Assembly (NCBI GenBank): GCA_002749535.1
Contig: MZZL01000390.1
Span: forward strand, 153,439 to 217,438
DNA from: Apophysomyces variabilis
Taxonomy: Eukaryota; Mucoromycota; Mucoromycetes; Mucorales; Mucoraceae
Length of the DNA: 64,000 nucleotides
Direction: 5' to 3'
This document shows, in pieces, positions 1-8,139 of the stretch (its first letter is position 1; each line of letters starts with the position of its first letter). Made by a program: the position numbers and the translations under genes. The notes below the pieces were generated by a model. The model did not search any database and was not told the DNA's origin. It saw only the letters and a list, made by a program, of their open reading frames with translations.

Positions 1-610
1 AGTTGGTGCTGTGCACATCACGGCCGAACAATCTTGATACCATAACTTCCGTGCCTTCAAGAGAACGTTTCACTCCAGCGGTGTCGTAAGCATTCTTGAC
101 AGATAAAAGAAGGCTGTATCTGCCGTGAAGGCCTTGAAGAGGTTCGTTCCGTCGTCATTATACCCACAGAGCTGGCCGTCAGAGTGCAAAATATCTGATT
201 GTGGTATATATTGAGCTTCGCTAGCTGCCTGGCGCGTGGCAAGACTTGGTTCACTTCTTCCCATCGTCTGATAGTTTGTTGCGCAATAAAAGATGTGTCG
301 CCATAGGTCCTGAGCCGTGCGCTTACCGTTCCGGAAGAGGAGTTCATAAAAGCTCAGCATTGCATCGTTGTCCAAGTTGTATGCTTCGCGTATGGCAATG
401 TTGGCAACATGATAACCAACGTAACGGACATAAGACATATCATCGATGATCTTGTCCATAACCTTTTGAATGAGTGAAGCTTCGTCTATGCCTTCCCGAT
501 CTGGCCTATTTCTTCTTCGTGCTCGATGAACAGCAGCTGCGAGTACAGACGAATAAAGACCAGCATCCGCAGTAGCAACATATCTGGAACTTTGATAAAG
601 CGTAATNTGA
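1..610 (-). repeat. Tandem repeat copy A (partner at 2201-2810)
   Basis: This segment matches 2201-2810 at an exact offset of 2200 bp, with scattered single-base differences. The similarity stops abruptly after the block that ends near an ambiguous base (n) at 607. The constant offset suggests a 2.2-kb tandem duplication whose first unit starts left of the window and whose junction lies at 610/611. On the minus strand both copies encode the same helical protein block. Seen: the offset and the mismatches. Inferred: the duplication. The ambiguous base at the junction also leaves an assembly join possible. Confidence 0.85.
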
Positions 611-2199
611 GCTTCTAGCCAGTCGCGGTTTGGAATAGTTCTGCCATACAGATAGCCTGGCTTGATAGTGAGCTGGGAACCGTATAGTCCTGGCTCCCTC
701 GGTCGGAACACACTAGCAGCAGCACATACTTCCCCAAAGTCCAGACTAACTACACCATCGTAATGCTGGAGATAATCGTATTGCTCCCCAGATGAGCCGG
801 CTTGCCATGTGTCCTTCAACGTCTCTCTTGTTGTTCGTCTGATCTCCGTCAAATACTTGCATGTAGTATTTCCACGACGTGATCTGAGGCAATCATTATA
901 TATGCAATATAGGCGAACACCGTCAGTGCGAAAGACACGACGTCGAGAGAAACGAAGCTTGTTTTCATTGCCCGGTATTTGCTGGTTCAACCATCGCATG
1001 TAACCCCGGTCTCGGACATCAACGCCTCCGTCTCTTGTAATGGTAGCTTGCCGACGGATGTCGAAGAGTGCGCTGAACGGATCTCTGCTGTTGATGCCCT
1101 GGAGTCTTACACATGCATTTTGTAGATTGTCTCTCTCTGTAATTGAAATATAAGTGAATTTGCTCAACTACATACAATTAATAACTTCTATTTACCTCTT
1201 GTCAATTCAGCAATGCGTCGATCATTGGGACCAGCTGTTAATTCTTGCTCCAATTGCTGAATGATAGGACGAGAGAAATGCTCAATGTGAGCGAGCAAAG
1301 TTGTCGTAAAGGAAAGATTGAAAGGGAGAGCGATACGATGATGTGCTTGGAGAGGACATAAAACGAAAGATTGGGAATTACCTTCTCGCCTTTCCAGGAA
1401 ATAGATCATAAACGGGATCAATCTTGCAGCCTTTGCCCTGGAAACTTTGCCTCCATAAGTTCGGTGGAGCACATCATCCTCATCATCTTCATAACCGTTC
1501 TCTTCATCATTGTTACCACCGTTTGTTCCTTGTCTCCCATTCTCACCAAGACATTCGGACAGATTGACCTCGGACACTCGAATGCCTGTTACTTGGAGAT
1601 TGCGCTCAGCGGTGATGAAATCTTCTATCTGGGTATGAACGTCGTTTGCTAAACCAGCAAGGATGTCGCCAGTTGCTTGACGTTCTTCCTCTTGATCTTG
1701 CTCATATTCTTCAAAATCTTCTTGATCAGCACCAGCTTCGCTAATATCGACTGACATGCCCCAGATTCGTTGAAATAAAGCACTGATAATCTTGTCCCTG
1801 TTTCTTGGCTATCCTGGGGACACCGTTGCATGATTCTCAACTTCAAGTCGGCACCTGTCTTCATCAAATGCTTCAATGGAGTTCTTGTATCGATTCACCA
1901 TGTTGGTCACAAACTTGTTGACTTGTTCACGGATATTAGCTTCAGCGACGTATTGGAACCTCGGCTGTCGTTCCTGTGCAGCTACATGTTAAATTCCGTC
2001 ATGAACAGAATGAATAATGAATGAATTTGTCAAATCTTCCTTGATCTGGAGCAGGCCAACCAACTGGTACTCGAGCCACTTGTTTCAGTCGCGATCGAAG
2101 ATAATCGCAGTAACGATCCTTGAAGTTGTAAACGATGTTCTTGCGAAAATCAACACTGGCGCCATTGGCGATCTCAGTCACCATCTCTCCCATGTACAT
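611..2199 (-). pseudogene. Fanzor/TnpB-like protein fragment with RuvC-I-like motif
   Basis: Minus-strand reading blocks run from 2199 (a KNIVYNFKDRYCDYLRSRL block, like the helical N-terminal part of TnpB/Fanzor proteins) through an acidic block at 1188-1757. An intron at about 1137-1183 (donor GTAAAT, acceptor TTACAG) leads into a block ending around 610. That last block holds VVSLDFGEVCAAASVF, which resembles the first RuvC motif (D-x-G) of TnpB/Fanzor RNA-guided nucleases. RuvC-II, the zinc ribbon and RuvC-III are not seen because the reading frame meets the repeat junction at 610/611. Frame changes occur near 1999 and 1760. Seen: blocks, intron signals and motif. Inferred: family membership, by pattern only. 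It may be a truncated copy of a larger element. Confidence 0.45.
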
Positions 2200-4345
2200 C
2201 AGTTGGTGCTATGCACATCACGGCCGAACAATCTTGATACCATAACTTCCGTGCCTTCAAGAGAACGTTTCGCTCCAGCGGTGTCTTAAGCATTCTTGAC
2301 AGATAAAAGAAGGCTGTATCTGCCGTGAAGGCCTTGAAGAGGTTCGTTAGGTCGTCATTATGCCCACGGAGCTGGCCGTCAGAGTGCAAAATATCTGACT
2401 GTGGTATATATTGAGCTTCGCTAGCTGCCTGGTGAGTGGAAAGACTTGGTTCACTTCTTCCCATCGTCTGATAGTTTGTTGCGCGATAAAAGATGTGTCG
2501 CCATAGGTCCTGAGCCGTGCGCTTACCGATCCGGAAGAAGAGTTCATAAAAGCTCAGCATTGCATCGTTGTCCAAGTTGTATGCTTCGCGTATGGCAATG
2601 TTGGCAATATGATAACCAACGTAACGGACATAAGACATATCATCGATGATCTTGTCCATAACCTTTTCGATGAGTGAAGCTTCGTCTATGCCTTCCCGAT
2701 CTGGCCTATTTCTTCTTCGTGCTCGATGAACAGCAGCTGCGAGTACAGACGAATAAAGACCAGCATCCGCAGTAGCAACATATCTGGAACTTTGATAAAG
2801 CGTAATATGATGGCCGGTGTCCTCCTCGGTGTAAGTGATTTTTTCCGGGAAGGAGTCCCTGATTTCACCACTTGCGGCGTCCCTGATAAATTGTGCCTGC
2901 CGTCTCGACGGTCCCGCGCGACCCTTCTTGGCGGGTCTGGTCTGCTTCTTACTAGTTTTTGGAGCATGCGGTCCGGTGTCTTCCTCTTCGATCACACCTT
3001 CGTTAAGTTCGGGTGTCGGCTCGAGCAACCTGTATCGGCTTCCATAATTGGGACGCTGGTTGTGTCGCACCGGAGTTGTCCCTGCCATAGCCGAACGAGC
3101 GAGACTTTCAATAATGTTGGTATCGGCGTTTCGTAAACGGATATCGCCGTAATGAATAGGTTGCTCATCAGAATGAACTCCAGAAACTCGTGGCCTGCAA
3201 AACTGGTGGAGTGCAACCCTGAACCAGTGCATTTCAGAATCTGATACAAAGACACTGATGTTGTTCATCAAGGTCTGCAGCAAAGTGTCTGCTTCATCGG
3301 CTTGTGGGACTTGTTCTAGTGCTGCCTTGACCCTTTTGAATGATTTGCCTCGTAGATTTTTCGCATAATCATTTCCACATGTGGCTGCCAAGGCGACAAA
3401 AACGGATTTGAGCCTACTGTGCGATATATTAATAACTGTGATCTTAAGTAGCAGCATATGAATACTTACATTGATAGCTTGTCCGTCTGTGATCGCAGTT
3501 TGCAGCCCCATGAAAGCTGTTAAAAGACTCCGCTTGGTTGATACTGTCCCATTGTATCGTTGGGGCCCGTGTCGCCAGTTCATCTTGGTTATGCGCTAGA
3601 AAGCATAGATAACATGGATTAGCGTATGCGTATTGGAGAAAGAGGGTAGACTTATTCATTTACTGGAACGTCCAGAGCACCTTGATAAGCGAATAGGTCG
3701 CCATCTCGAGACATAATGGCTTCTCCGAGCGAGTCGCATAAATAGACGACTTCCGGATCAGCATCGAATGGAGCCTCGTGAATGAATATTCTCACTGGCT
3801 CGTTAGCGAAATTGTGATCATAAGGCCGGGTGTCTTGTCTTGTGTTCAACTCGTGAATGATTGCGCCTTTGATCGCTGGAGTAAAGCTGACCCACTGCTT
3901 GGCGTATTTTCTACGGAGACGCTCCCTCGCCGCAAAGTATAGTCCGCGGGGGTCTCCGGTCTGTCTTCGAGCCTTCCTCCAAGCCAGGTTCTTCTTGGCT
4001 TGTCTTGCGGCGTGGGTGACTCTCTTGGCGGATAGTCGGTCGCCATCGAAGACCAGACAGATTTTTGGGACATCACTGTTGTCGGCGAACGCATTAAGTT
4101 CGTTCATCGTACAGTCTACGAAACGCCTGGCGACCTCAGCATATTGATTGCTGCTGTTCTCGTTGTTGTCGATCACCAGTGGCGGTCAGAAAGTCCACTG
4201 CGAAGTCTTGAAGGAGCCAAAAAAAGTCGCAGCAGAAATCGACATAAACGATCCCGACGTGTTGTTGCCGCAGATGGCCGGGTATGTTTGTCGTGGTTGT
4301 CGCTCCTGCCTGGCGCAGATACGCCTGGAATCCCTTTAGACCCAT
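2174..4345 (-). pseudogene. XPG/FEN1-like nuclease joined in frame to a Fanzor-like N-terminal block
   Basis: The minus strand starts at 4345 with an XPG-type N-terminus (MGLKGFQAYL). Downstream motifs follow FEN1/XPG order: a first Asp in VYVDF, the Mg-binding VFDGD with the following Lys/Arg helix, an acidic pair as DAD where FEN1 has EAE, then SRDGDLFAY with two Asp, and a helix-2-turn-helix GNDY...RGKSF...RVKAAL. A frame change near 4136-4176 is either a very short intron or a frameshift. A normal intron of about 53 nt fits near 3593-3646. After the nuclease come about 80 residues of low-complexity, basic linker (KKQTRPAKKGRAG), and the same frame enters the repeated helical block at 2810, ending at 2174. 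XPG/FEN1 enzymes cut branched DNA flaps. Whether the join is a real fusion gene or a chimera made by rearrangement cannot be decided here. Confidence 0.6.
2201..2810 (-). repeat. Tandem repeat copy B (partner at 1-610)
   Basis: Second copy of the block at 1-610. Differences are base substitutions such as those near 2211, 2271, 2287, 2349 and 2530, so the copies have diverged or come from different alleles. Upstream on the minus strand (above 2810) copy B continues in frame into an XPG/FEN1-like reading frame. Copy A instead continues into a RuvC-like reading frame above 610. The block itself is coding-like on the minus strand in both copies. Confidence 0.85.
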
Positions 4346-6007
4346 GGTGCTACAAAGAATTGAATCGTAATATTTATAATATAAAAATTAGTTGTGGGAT
4401 ACTCACAACTTTGCTTTGTTCTGAATGAGATGTTTCCGCACTTTCTCTAGCCAGACTATCAGTATCCATACGAAACATACAAGTGTTTGACTATGGTACT
4501 TACCGGTGTAAAAGATAAAGAAAAAGAAAAAGAAAAATGATAAATCTTGTTAATGCTTGTACTATGAACAAAACAACTGTTAGTGACGAGTTAATCCATG
4601 CGATCAGGATAAACTTACAGTGAAAAAATGTAGAGTGAAATAGATAAGTAAATTTTGTATAGAGTGAATACTTCGATAAAAGTAAACATGAAGTGAAAAA
4701 GAAGTATATACGTTTGTTTGACACGGCTGCTCCCTTTTATTCTTTGTCGTTAGCATTAATCAGAAAAAAAGGAGACGCTAAGTCACAGGTTGTCAGTCAT
4801 ATGCTGCTTTCTTTGTCTCCAATTCGGAAGGTGTGTAAAAAAGCTTTTATTATATTAATGTCATATCCAACATTCTACAACAAAACTTGGGTCGCAGAGG
4901 TTGTTAGGTTTTCCTCCTTTTCCAGGTCATCTATATAAAATATATCTTGTAGGCTTTTGGAGTAGAAAGAAGAGGTGGTTAGATTCAATTAAACATGAGT
5001 AGAACAGGATTCGAACAAGGTAATTACCTCGGGCATTACTCCCCAACATATTTCAGCGCCGTTATGATAAAATAAAACATCTTTGACGTGTTATTCGGTG
5101 AGAATACTAGGAGAGAAGTGCAAGAATAAAACGCAAGTAGCGTCACAGCAACTGATCGCAGAGGGAGTGCCCCTGAAGGTACCTTCGTTATCATTTCTAC
5201 CTGTACTTTCCATGTGTACCATTGTCATTTCTTTGATGCAATGTTATTAATTCAATAAGACTTTTTGTTTGTTATTCCATCATGATCCTTAGCATTTGCA
5301 TTTTGTATAACCAAATGAGCTCTCGGGCGCTCCATCAGTTGCTGAGATGCTACCTATAGTTTGTTCCTCCGCTCTTTTCTTGTTATTGTTACTGGCCAAT
5401 ATGACAAACGGCGTCTAGTTTATGATAACGGCGCTCAAATAATTTGGGGGAGGAGTGTCAGAGGGGAGCACCCGAGGTAAATCCCTTCCAACAAAGACAC
5501 TAAAATAAGGTTTAAGGTGTCAATCTATCGGATTTATGAAGATCCTGTCTAACCCGAGTGGAAAAAGGCTGGAGCCTAAATAAAACCAAAGTTCTAAAAG
5601 GAGTCTCTTCTTTGTTTGCTATATATATAATGATCATTATCAACAACATCTACCGCGACTGATTATTCTTTGTTAAAAGGAAAAGTTGACTGTAATAACT
5701 GACGGATGTCTAGTCATGGAGATACCCGGTCAAAACCTATAGATTTCTAGTCATACAATTTCCCGTTATGATATGTTTGCAACAATATTGTAAAAGAAAA
5801 GAGAACACAAAGAAGGTAAGATAGAGAATATAATTTCTGCCTACAACTGATTCAGACAATCTATTATTAGTATAATTTATATGCAGTGAGAAAAAACAAG
5901 AGTTCAGGGTCATAACTGAGAATGGAAAGAGACAAGCAATATATGCGAGACACTATAGAAAATATGGGTTTCTTCTGGTCTCCATCAGTGCCTATTTTGC
6001 TATTTCT
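4346..6007. other. No recognisable gene; AT-rich
   Basis: AT-rich sequence with short frames only. A GGATTCGAAC string near 5009-5019 resembles the T-arm of a minus-strand tRNA, but no cloverleaf can be drawn around it. No other structure was found. Confidence 0.5.
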
Positions 6008-6143
6008 GGTTCCTGATATACTACTTTCTATAAAGTAAAAAATAGTCCATTGAGAGCCAATGTTTACTTTCTGCAGCAGACCCGTAAACCTTGGTTCCTA
6101 ATGTACTATTTTTTACTTAATGGAAAATAGTACATCAGGAACC
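6008..6143. repeat. Pair of 51-bp palindromic repeats
   Basis: Two units of exactly 51 bp, 6008-6058 and 6093-6143, each begin with GGTTCCT. Unit 2 ends with its complement (AGGAACC) and unit 1 with a degenerate form (GAGAGCC). Each is an imperfect inverted repeat with arms of about 24 nt built on the motif GGTTCCTRATRTACTA followed by a T-run, so the motif occurs four times in alternating orientation. The layout resembles MITE or foldback-element ends, or a small tandem of hairpins. No protein is encoded here and no target-site duplication was identified. Confidence 0.7.
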
Positions 6144-6545
6144 ACTTCTCATAGTGAAACTCAATGTAGGATAATGTTTATTTGAATAAAAGCATTAGTC
6201 TTTTATACCAAAATGTCCGTTGGTCTAGATTGACAGGAGTGTAATCGAGGACTGTGCTCTGTAGTAAGTGATTTGGAATTGCTTTCTATAATGGAGAATT
6301 TTTTCCGCAGCAAATCATAGAAGGTTGGCATTATTCGTTGTATCGAGGGAGTCAGTTAGCATTGCTTGATCCTGTGTTATGCAAGTCCATAATTATAAGT
6401 CCATATTCCTCTATTTAGACATAAGGAGGGTAGAAAGTATCCATAGTAGCTGTGGATACGGCAAAGAACACACTCATCTACTACAATGAAAGTAGTGAGG
6501 AGTTAAGATCGATTATTCTGAATAAAGATATAAAAACAGGATAAG
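6144..6545. other. No recognisable gene
   Basis: AT-rich spacer between the palindromes and the possible small gene at 6546. Nothing identified. Confidence 0.5.
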
Positions 6546-6865
6546 ATGACCATAAAAATCTCCAAAAATATCAATATCATGTGTCGCGCAATCCATATCA
6601 ATTCCGTTGCAAATTTCTATTGTACTGAAGCTAACGGTGGCCGTGCTTTTACTTCCCAAAATGGTCGTGCTGGTCGTGCCGTAAGTTATTATACTTGGCA
6701 TGTATGTTAACAAAGAAACAGATACTAAACCTGATTTTTACATAGGGACGCCGTCCCCCTCAATGGGTGCGGCGCCATAAGCGCCAACATCAACAGCAAC
6801 AGCAACAGCAACAACAAGGGCAGCCAATATCTGTAGACGAGGCTGCTCTAGAAGAGCTACGCTGA
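6546..6865 (+). CDS. Possible small two-exon gene, unknown function
   Basis: Not recognised. An ATG at 6546 opens 45 codons that end at a strong donor (GTAAGT at 6681). An intron of 65 nt has an ACTAAAC branch-like site and a CATAG acceptor (6681-6745), and the second exon runs 6746-6865 to TGA. The frame stays open across the join, giving 84 residues. The first exon is rich in Asn, Gly and Arg towards its end (GGRAFTSQNGRAGRA). The second starts with a basic stretch, then nine Gln in a row and an acidic end. Start and expression are unproven. It may be the 3' end of a longer or decayed gene. Confidence 0.35.
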
Positions 6866-8139
6866 ATAGCTGGGCTAAATAATTTTTTTTACTTTTTTTT
6901 TATTGTTTCATGTTCTCTTAATTTTTATAGAATACATATTGTCTGCTAAAGTCTTCTATAGTCTTCTTCTTTCATATGATTTGAAAGTTCCTCTGCATCA
7001 TTCCCGGTAAAAGACTATCTTGGTATGTTTTAGAATAGAATACGTAAAAGTCGCATCATCTTTGGGTGCATCCGAACAAAGTTTACATAGTTTATGTCAT
7101 TTCCTTTTCATTGTACAACGGATTTGCATGGAATGTTACATAAATATTACACGTGTAGATACAGTTTGTAACTCGGTCTACTGTTCCCATCAATAATACC
7201 TCAATGTCTATCTTGATTCAAAATTATGTCATGCTTACAGAAAATGACGGGAAAAGAACGAAAATGACATGTGAAGGAAAATAAACAAGTGGGTGACATG
7301 ATTTCCATTAGCGGTTTTCTATTTCCTCTAATACAAACCGTCCATTCAATCCACATGCCTAATACATATCGATATCTCCGCAAAACGTATCCATCGCATC
7401 AGGGCCCCTGTCCGGCCTGCTGTCGCCCGCTTCTTCCTTGCAAAAAGGCTTTTTTGATACTCACGCCCTTCCCCGATATTTTTCCATAGGGAAATTAGAG
7501 TCTATCATCTCAAGAAGTGAAGCGTTGTGTTGTTTGAGCCTACTAATTTCAGCCTTGGCAGCAGCGAGTTCTGCTTTTGACTGTTTAACAGTGGGCATGG
7601 GGAGAGCTCAAGGATGTGGATGCACTTTTAAAACGAGGTAAAGCGAAAGCTAAGCAGAAAAAGGACGGCATTGAAATTTTTTTTTTTTTTTCATTTGTTG
7701 CCACATTTAATTCCACTGGACTGCGACTTTCGATTTTCGTAGTTTGCGAAATTATTTTTGGGAGATACTGTGAAGGTATTCAGCTATAATCGCCATCGAT
7801 ATATATACATACGTTTTAATATATTTGTTCTCGTATGTTTCAGATTATTTATTCCCTGCTACTTCTTTAACAAACAGCCATAATTCGGCTGCATCATTCT
7901 TACTGAATTCGATCCCGAAAAATTGGTTGATGCAGTTCCCAGACAAGCACTGACAGTGACTTGTCCTTTTCCAAATTTGGTACAGTCAACCTCTTCAGTT
8001 CGAAACACGAACGGACCTGTTGCTTTCAGTTTTCAAACGCAGCAAGCCAGGCTGTACACATACGCCTCCTCTCTCCTTCCTTTACCTTCTCGTTATCCCC
8101 CACGTCGACCCGGAACGCACAAGTTTCAAATCATACATA
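6866..8139. other. No firm gene; poly-T tract and 5' region of AP-3 beta
   Basis: Apart from the micro-ORF at 7461-7598, this stretch holds a T-run of about 15 at 7677-7691 and pyrimidine-rich sequence just before the AP-3 beta start at 8140. That sequence is a likely promoter and 5' leader. Confidence 0.45.
7461..7598 (-). CDS. Possible micro-ORF, coiled-coil like
   Basis: A 45-codon minus-strand frame from ATG at 7598 encodes an Ala/Lys/Glu-rich helical peptide (MPTVKQSKAELAAAKAEISR then LKQHNASLLE) with heptad-like spacing. A GTGAGT donor lies just before its stop, so it may be the first exon of a gene ending near 7362. No homologue is recognised. Confidence 0.25.
   Translation of the reverse strand: MPTVKQSKAELAAAKAEISRLKQHNASLLEMIDSNFPMEKYRGRA

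Follow-up and report, generated by a model that had tools for sequence, protein, structure and literature searches.

A mobile element of Apophysomyces variabilis carries a predicted gene that joins XPG/Exo1-type and Fanzor-type nuclease parts

The Element and Its Gene

The 64,000-nucleotide window analyzed here (positions 153,439 to 217,438 of contig MZZL01000390.1 of Apophysomyces variabilis) corresponds to C75:153439-217438 in the 38.7-Mb assembly, in which other sequences bear "C" and "L" names. It holds a decayed transposon copy on the minus strand, running from an inverted end at 7770 down to 608 and continuing beyond the window edge. The element is ∼9 kb long, and copy C64 was read end to end (8.9 kb). 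The predicted order of parts in the encoded protein is an XPG/Exo1-type nuclease (∼348 residues), a basic linker and a Fanzor (RuvC-I, RuvC-II, zinc finger and RuvC-III). Fanzors are eukaryotic RNA-guided nucleases and relatives of the CRISPR nucleases and of TnpB.

Translation confirmed what the initial annotation had reported, namely that the XPG motifs (VFDGD, SRDGDLFAY and GNDY), a basic linker and a helical block follow one another on the minus strand. The further claim, that the XPG frame continues into the Fanzor-like segment without a stop, held at ∼2810, where the frame is open, but not for the gene as a whole, which is not a single unbroken frame. VFDGD and SRDGDLFAY lie in frame 4185-3652 and GNDY in frame 3595-2174, with a predicted 68-bp intron (3663-3596) in between. 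An extra base relative to C64, shortly downstream of a second predicted intron (3469-3414) and near 3405 in exon 3, lets the 473-amino-acid frame of the window copy run through that intron. Frame changes near 4150, 2199 and 2018, the latter two in exon 3, break the gene of the window copy (Table 1). Within exon 3, the XPG part extends to ∼3190, the basic linker from ∼3190 to 2810, and the Fanzor helical part starts at ∼2810. The zinc-finger and RuvC-III part of exon 4 lies beyond a gap of N bases, outside the window.

The spliced C64 model has four predicted exons and 1574 codons, with seven stops counting the last. Its XPG/Exo1-type motifs are the MGLKGF start, VDFCCD, VFDGD, FEAD, SRDGDLFAY and GNDY. 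Next come the basic linker and a long helical region, then RuvC-I (GLDFGEVC), the RuvC-II Glu with the zinc finger (VDEYLTSKVCCRC) and RuvC-III (HGDGNAADN).

Table 1. Features of the element copy in the window (positions are those of the window)
Feature	Position	Strand	Support or occurrence
5′ terminal inverted repeat, CAGTATCTCCCAAAAATAATTTCG	7747..7770	-	Matches with small differences in C64, L022, L024, L025, L026, L027
Leader, 3.4 kb, without long open reading frame or recognized transposase	4346..7746	.	Common to C64 and C68
Exon 1: XPG N and I regions (MGLKGF, VDFCCD, VFDGD, FDAD, SRDGDLFAY); frame change near 4150	3664..4345	-	Pfam XPG_I and XPG_N, below cut-off
Predicted intron 1, gtaaat..ttctag, 68 bp	3596..3663	-	Same junction read in P0001
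Exon 2: XPG stretch from I region to GNDY	3470..3595	-	P0001 alignment
Predicted intron 2, gtaagt..cagtag	3414..3469	-	Same junction read in P0001
Exon 3: GNDY, XPG end, basic linker, Fanzor N-terminal helical part	1196..3413	-	Contiguous in C64, C68, C59
Predicted intron 3	1137..1195	-	Same junction read in P0001 (LTRERDNL)
Exon 4, first part: end of helical part and RuvC-I (SLDFGEVCAAA)	608..1136	-	
Single N, assembly join	607	.	Sole N in window
"Copy A": stray repeat of 2201-2806, 96-97% identical	1..606	-	Between N 607 and the 5,494-base N gap

The Join Recurs at Four Loci

Position 2810 had been taken as the join, with a chimera at a duplication edge as one possible origin. It is no boundary: it lies inside exon 3 (3413-1196), and it recurs in other copies. 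When a 2172-bp stretch of the element was used as query, three further loci matched over the full or nearly full length (96, 95, and 89% identity), and at each of them the next 1.57 kb directly follows this stretch. The join near 2810 was seen in all four long XPG-bearing copies of the genome (C64, C68, C59, and C75).

The initial annotation had also described a 2.2-kb duplication, and had placed the helical block next to a RuvC-I-like domain in copy A. The duplication is unsupported: copy A (1-606) is attached via the single N at 607 and is bordered on its other side by a gap of 5,494 N (C75:147945-153438). Past this gap the window element resumes, with its 3′ terminus near C75:146,628 and ∼165 element bases unaccounted for. 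In C64 the sequence matching window position 608 continues for 1.4 kb to the element end. Because of the single N and of the continuation found beyond the gap, bases 1-606 are most simply a stray piece lying between N 607 and the gap, that is, an assembly artefact; copy A as a second Fanzor copy was rejected on the same grounds. Formally, the segment could instead be truly duplicated within the element, with a gap in the sequencing. The contact between the helical block and RuvC-I in copy A is an assembly effect, but the block is part of the Fanzor gene, since C64, C59, C68 and copy B of the window all carry it within that gene, upstream of RuvC-I. Another single N was observed at L028:7285, after which the sequence jumps back within the element. 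Such single Ns (window 607 and L028:7285) are probably unmerged contig overlaps that resemble tandem duplications.

Both Parts Are Joined in Protein Models of Two Genera

With the XPG part of the model as protein query, one match was found among 7990 scored candidates, P0001 of Apophysomyces ossiformis (1036 amino acids). It is 80% identical, spans from inside the XPG part through the linker and the helical part to RuvC-I, and has the same three splice junctions. The Fanzor part retrieved six matches (P0001-P0006) among 7011 candidates. P0004 of Lichtheimia hyalospora (1416 amino acids) contains both domains, complete and stop-free, and as a query matched only itself among 4519 candidates. The fusion is present in two of the six protein models, from two genera, and the closest named proteins retrieved belong to Apophysomyces (order Mucorales). 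P0002, P0003 and P0005 (all Apophysomyces) and P0006 are models without XPG; the first three look like truncated copies. P0006, on a 5.5-kb contig, may either be partial or represent a true XPG-less Fanzor. No viral relatives were detected in three scans of viral contigs, each with two peptide patterns, which reach fairly close relatives only.

The model and P0004 are identical at 123 of 335 aligned positions of the XPG part (36.7%), at 27 of 104 positions of the linker (26.0%), and at 42.6, 35.6, 47.4 and 47.7% of the positions in the Fanzor segments. All 10 catalytic acidic positions agree (seven in XPG and three in RuvC). Since a predicted gene in another fungal genus joins the same two parts unbroken, the join looks natural rather than an assembly error. 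Co-occurrence of both domains in one fungal gene, a check proposed earlier, was found by the protein searches in P0001 and P0004. At the level of gene structure, the four copies, the A. ossiformis protein and the L. hyalospora model bear out the suggestion that a branched-DNA-type nuclease and a Fanzor-type nuclease are naturally fused on a mobile element.

The XPG Part Resembles Exo1

Pfam XPG_I matches were below cut-off in the window piece (E 0.0053), in P0001 (E 2e-4), and in P0004 (E 0.018), as was XPG_N in the window piece (E 0.13). When a three-row XPG profile was compared with the PDB, Exo1 structures occupied five of the six rows (E 4e-6 to 6e-5), and FEN1 was at E 0.92. The PDB alignment places the EAD with the spacing of Exo1. 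All seven acidic positions of the XPG site (D37, D103, E191, D193, D213, D215, and D282 in P0004 numbering), which by human EXO1 and FEN1 we take to be the catalytic ones, carry the same letter in the C64 model and in P0004.

The four long copies look decayed, with differences spread evenly over the codon positions in five of the seven comparisons (p > 0.05). The XPG parts of C59 and C64 differ at 43/50/81 first, second and third positions (p 0.0009, the smallest of the seven), with a ratio of nonsynonymous to synonymous substitution rates (dN/dS) of 0.38 over 285 codons, four stop-bearing codons and the gapped ones having been dropped. Because of this third-position excess and of the dN/dS value, the C59/C64 comparison points to past selection on the XPG protein. 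The comparison with L026 gave p 0.008. C59 is a mosaic copy, ∼17% diverged from C64 in the XPG part and ∼3-6% in the rest of the gene.

The Fanzor Part Is Divergent

The Fanzor/TnpB pattern given in the main text of PMC3627910, D-X(125,275)-[TS][TS]-X-X-C4 zinc finger-X(5,50)-RD, was present in the three sequences that hold this stretch whole, with X = 197 (model), 198 (P0004) and 271 (P0006). P0003 and P0005 keep the RD end and lack TSxxCxxC, and P0001 and P0002 end before it. Deviations from the pattern were that C64 has GD for RD, with HRD in the majority line of nine copies, CACCGGGAT, and that P0004 lacks the fourth Cys. The three catalytic positions of the RuvC site are the same in the C64 model and P0004, and the Glu before the zinc finger fits the catalytic layout described in the main text of PMC11423790.

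Scores for TNB (PF07282; cut-off 26.3 bits) were 22.7 for P0004, 25.7 for P0006 and 23.1 for the C64 copy, all under the cut-off, and 30.4 for the family copy C88:152289, which is over it. Because TNB scores straddle the cut-off and solved Fanzors were unmatched in structure-database searches, the Fanzor part represents a divergent clade, called Fanzor chiefly for its motifs and gene context. An Rfam scan of the window gave no match; the 3′ end of the element lies outside the window.

Element Ends and Mobility

The termini of the element, CAGTATCTCCCAAAAAT... and ...AATTTTTGGAAATAAAG, are Tc1/mariner-like inverted ends. TA flanks both sides in all six copies, other than C75, in which both ends were read (C64, L022, L024, L025, L026, and L027). 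C75, the window copy, has CA instead of TA on the left and TA on the right, and TA also follows the right end of C59 and L023, where this end alone was read. The base after the 3′ TA is C in eight of nine copies (C64, C59, C75, and L022-L027) and T in one (L026), which could be a target or guide-adjacent preference.

No transposase gene was found in the leader, where stop-to-stop frames are ≤92 amino acids and 10 frames compared with Pfam gave a best E of 0.033, none of them to a transposase. Outside the fusion gene the element has no frame of more than ∼100 amino acids. Since no DDE transposase of its own was recognized, the element is classed as non-autonomous, and with Tc1/mariner-like ends and no recognized transposase it is probably moved in trans. 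The genome contains 171 DDE_3 transposase matches; 12 loci were inspected, and resemblances to the element ends were weak only. The leader also contains an inverted repeat at window 6007-6144, with 61-nt arms that are 85% complementary.

XPG Linkage and Deletion Derivatives in the Genome

The XPG part of P0004 gave 14 matches in nine places of the genome. The Fanzor part lies beside it in five of the nine, of which four are the long copies. The fifth, C92:420-421 kb, is an old copy (81-83%) whose XPG part has come to abut the C-terminal part of the Fanzor through an internal deletion. The other four places are relics (C48, C43, C78:640 kb, and C95:770 kb). No match to the Fanzor of this element was found in the flanks of the three that were fetched, with C48 and C43 lying near contig ends, and none was listed near the fourth.

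The linkage does not run the other way: TNB gave 150 listed matches at E up to 1, many of them weak and 57 over the cut-off. With its 171 DDE_3 matches, the genome is rich in both Fanzor-like and Tc1/mariner sequences. Outside this family, comparison of the lists by eye placed one TNB match <5 kb from XPG: C43:280-471, which lies ∼2 kb from the C43 relic and on the other strand. The second closest pair, a TNB match and a Pfam XPG gene at C43:224 kb and 233 kb, is ∼10 kb apart.

XPG is absent from seven copies (L022-L028), and so is part of the Fanzor N-terminus, L023 being without the first ∼40 Fanzor residues only; six of the seven have one common internal junction. We read them as deletion derivatives. 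That they represent an ancestral XPG-less form was rejected, because part of the Fanzor N-terminus is missing too.

Elsewhere in the window, 10 long open reading frames (24188-51974) were scanned. Matches were to ordinary genes of the host type, namely DnaJ, two FAD_binding_3 proteins, a TPR protein, an adenylosuccinate-lyase-like lyase, Sec16 (two frames) and ZPR1; two frames had no match.

Discussion

Taken together, these data very probably reflect one transposon gene for a protein with two nucleases, in which an N-terminal XPG/Exo1-type 5′ nuclease is followed by a basic linker and a Fanzor1-type RuvC nuclease. Several observations weigh against this conclusion. None of the four long copies is intact, each having stops or frame changes, with six stops inside the 1574-codon C64 model. 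C68 ends in an N gap, C75 is divided by one, and in C59 the first ∼2.4 kb of the element are unmatched, the match extending from there to the 3′ end. The second genus is represented by one gene model (P0004) on an 8.5-kb contig. A single XPG sequence compared with the PDB matched an inosine-guanosine kinase first (E 0.0062) and Exo1 next (E 0.38). On the Fanzor side, P0004 and P0006 score below the Pfam cut-off for TNB, and solved Fanzors were matched neither by the Fanzor-part profiles nor by P0004 alone. One TnpB was matched weakly, at E 0.53, by a fragment of the model, and among NCBIfam families IS607 TnpB matched P0006 only, far below cut-off (E 0.031). AlphaFold models were too poor to be of use, with a mean predicted local distance difference test score of 36.3 for P0001 and 34.5 for P0006, and codon-position bias was not significant in the Fanzor part of C59, C68 and C75.

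Four alternatives were weighed. A join created by assembly or by recombination at a duplication edge is very improbable. The window does hold an apparent false duplication (copy A, with N 607 and the N gap), and the N at L028:7285 also stands at a restart, but the artefact is copy A, 2.2 kb away from the join, and the join itself is found at four loci and in two named species, one of them in another genus; on the strength of the loci together with P0001 and P0004, a chimera at 2810 was rejected. It is improbable that two proteins are made, by splitting of a fusion precursor or from alternative starts that give XPG and Fanzor apart. The join lies within one exon, and P0001 and P0004 are stop-free between the parts. 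The linker is the least conserved stretch, which favors separation, as do the four models without XPG, but P0002, P0003 and P0005 look truncated.

The remaining alternatives accept the fusion and differ on the role of XPG. That it is a passenger or an inactive scaffold (e.g., nucleic-acid-binding or dimerizing), with the Fanzor acting alone, is unlikely but deserves more weight. The sub-cut-off XPG_I matches, P0006, and the number of XPG-less copies, six of the seven derivatives having one junction, are in its favor. The derivatives, however, say little on XPG alone, because part of the Fanzor N-terminus is gone too (in L023 only the first ∼40 residues), and the agreement of all seven catalytic acidic residues despite 36.7% identity and the third-position excess in C59/C64 argue against it. 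We consider comparably doubtful a role of XPG in transposition, acting on excision or integration intermediates or standing in for a transposase, rather than at Fanzor breaks. This would suit an element that has no recognized transposase and has XPG bound to its own gene. Five XPG-less derivatives, however, are TA-flanked on both sides, though XPG could have acted in trans, and DDE_3 transposase matches are abundant in the genome.

Given a two-nuclease protein encoded by one gene, we tentatively propose a natural RNA-guided enzyme in which the Fanzor cuts at a programmed site and the tethered Exo1-like domain resects or trims the ends, so that the transposon would control the repair of its own cuts. 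To judge from known Fanzors, the protein would use a guide RNA from the right end of the element to cut DNA, for example at a site emptied by excision. The tethered 5′ nuclease would then trim 5′ ends or flaps at the break, and the trimmed break would favor homology-directed repair, by which the element could be restored or copied. The gain for the transposon could be repair by copying from a filled site, the benefit invoked in the "retention" idea for TnpB. That a repair-type 5′ nuclease has stayed fused to a Fanzor in two fungal genera gives a concrete form to the idea that processing of the cut may channel repair into restoring or copying the element.

The initial annotation knew of no described system of this kind. 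None was found in the literature searched, the coverage being partial; a 2023 Science Advances survey of Fanzors outside that coverage could contain one. The words XPG and FEN1 do not occur in the main texts of PMC10432273, PMC10711439 and PMC11423790, nor XPG in that of PMC3627910, which was searched for this word and not for FEN1. "Fanzor flap endonuclease homologs" is a name for viral Fanzors in the main text of PMC11071296, in which no fusion was found.

Compared with known systems, the protein resembles Fanzor1 (SpuFz1, GtFz1, and PpFz1) in the RuvC D, the E before [TS][TS], the zinc finger and the RD/GD-GNAA motif. The TA-flanked carrier is a further likeness to Fanzor1, which occurs in Mariner elements according to the main text of PMC3627910; in contrast, the fusion protein has an N-terminal XPG/Exo1-type nuclease. 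PpFz1 of Parasitella is likewise a Mucorales Fanzor with an extra domain, the FRI insertion, but FRI lies inside RuvC and binds cyclophilin (main text of PMC11423790), whereas here the extra domain is an N-terminal nuclease. With Exonuclease 1, FEN1 and XPG the protein shares seven acidic residues, including the Exo1-type EAD, and a PDB profile match (best E 4e-6), but its XPG part is very divergent, falls below Pfam cut-offs and resides in a transposon protein. Engineered Cas-exonuclease fusions also tether an RNA-guided nuclease (here putative) to an exonuclease, and in general knockout is improved and deletions become larger when a Cas nuclease carries a fused exonuclease (main text of the review PMC11471210). 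Those fusions are man-made, and the XPG-Fanzor protein would be their natural counterpart.

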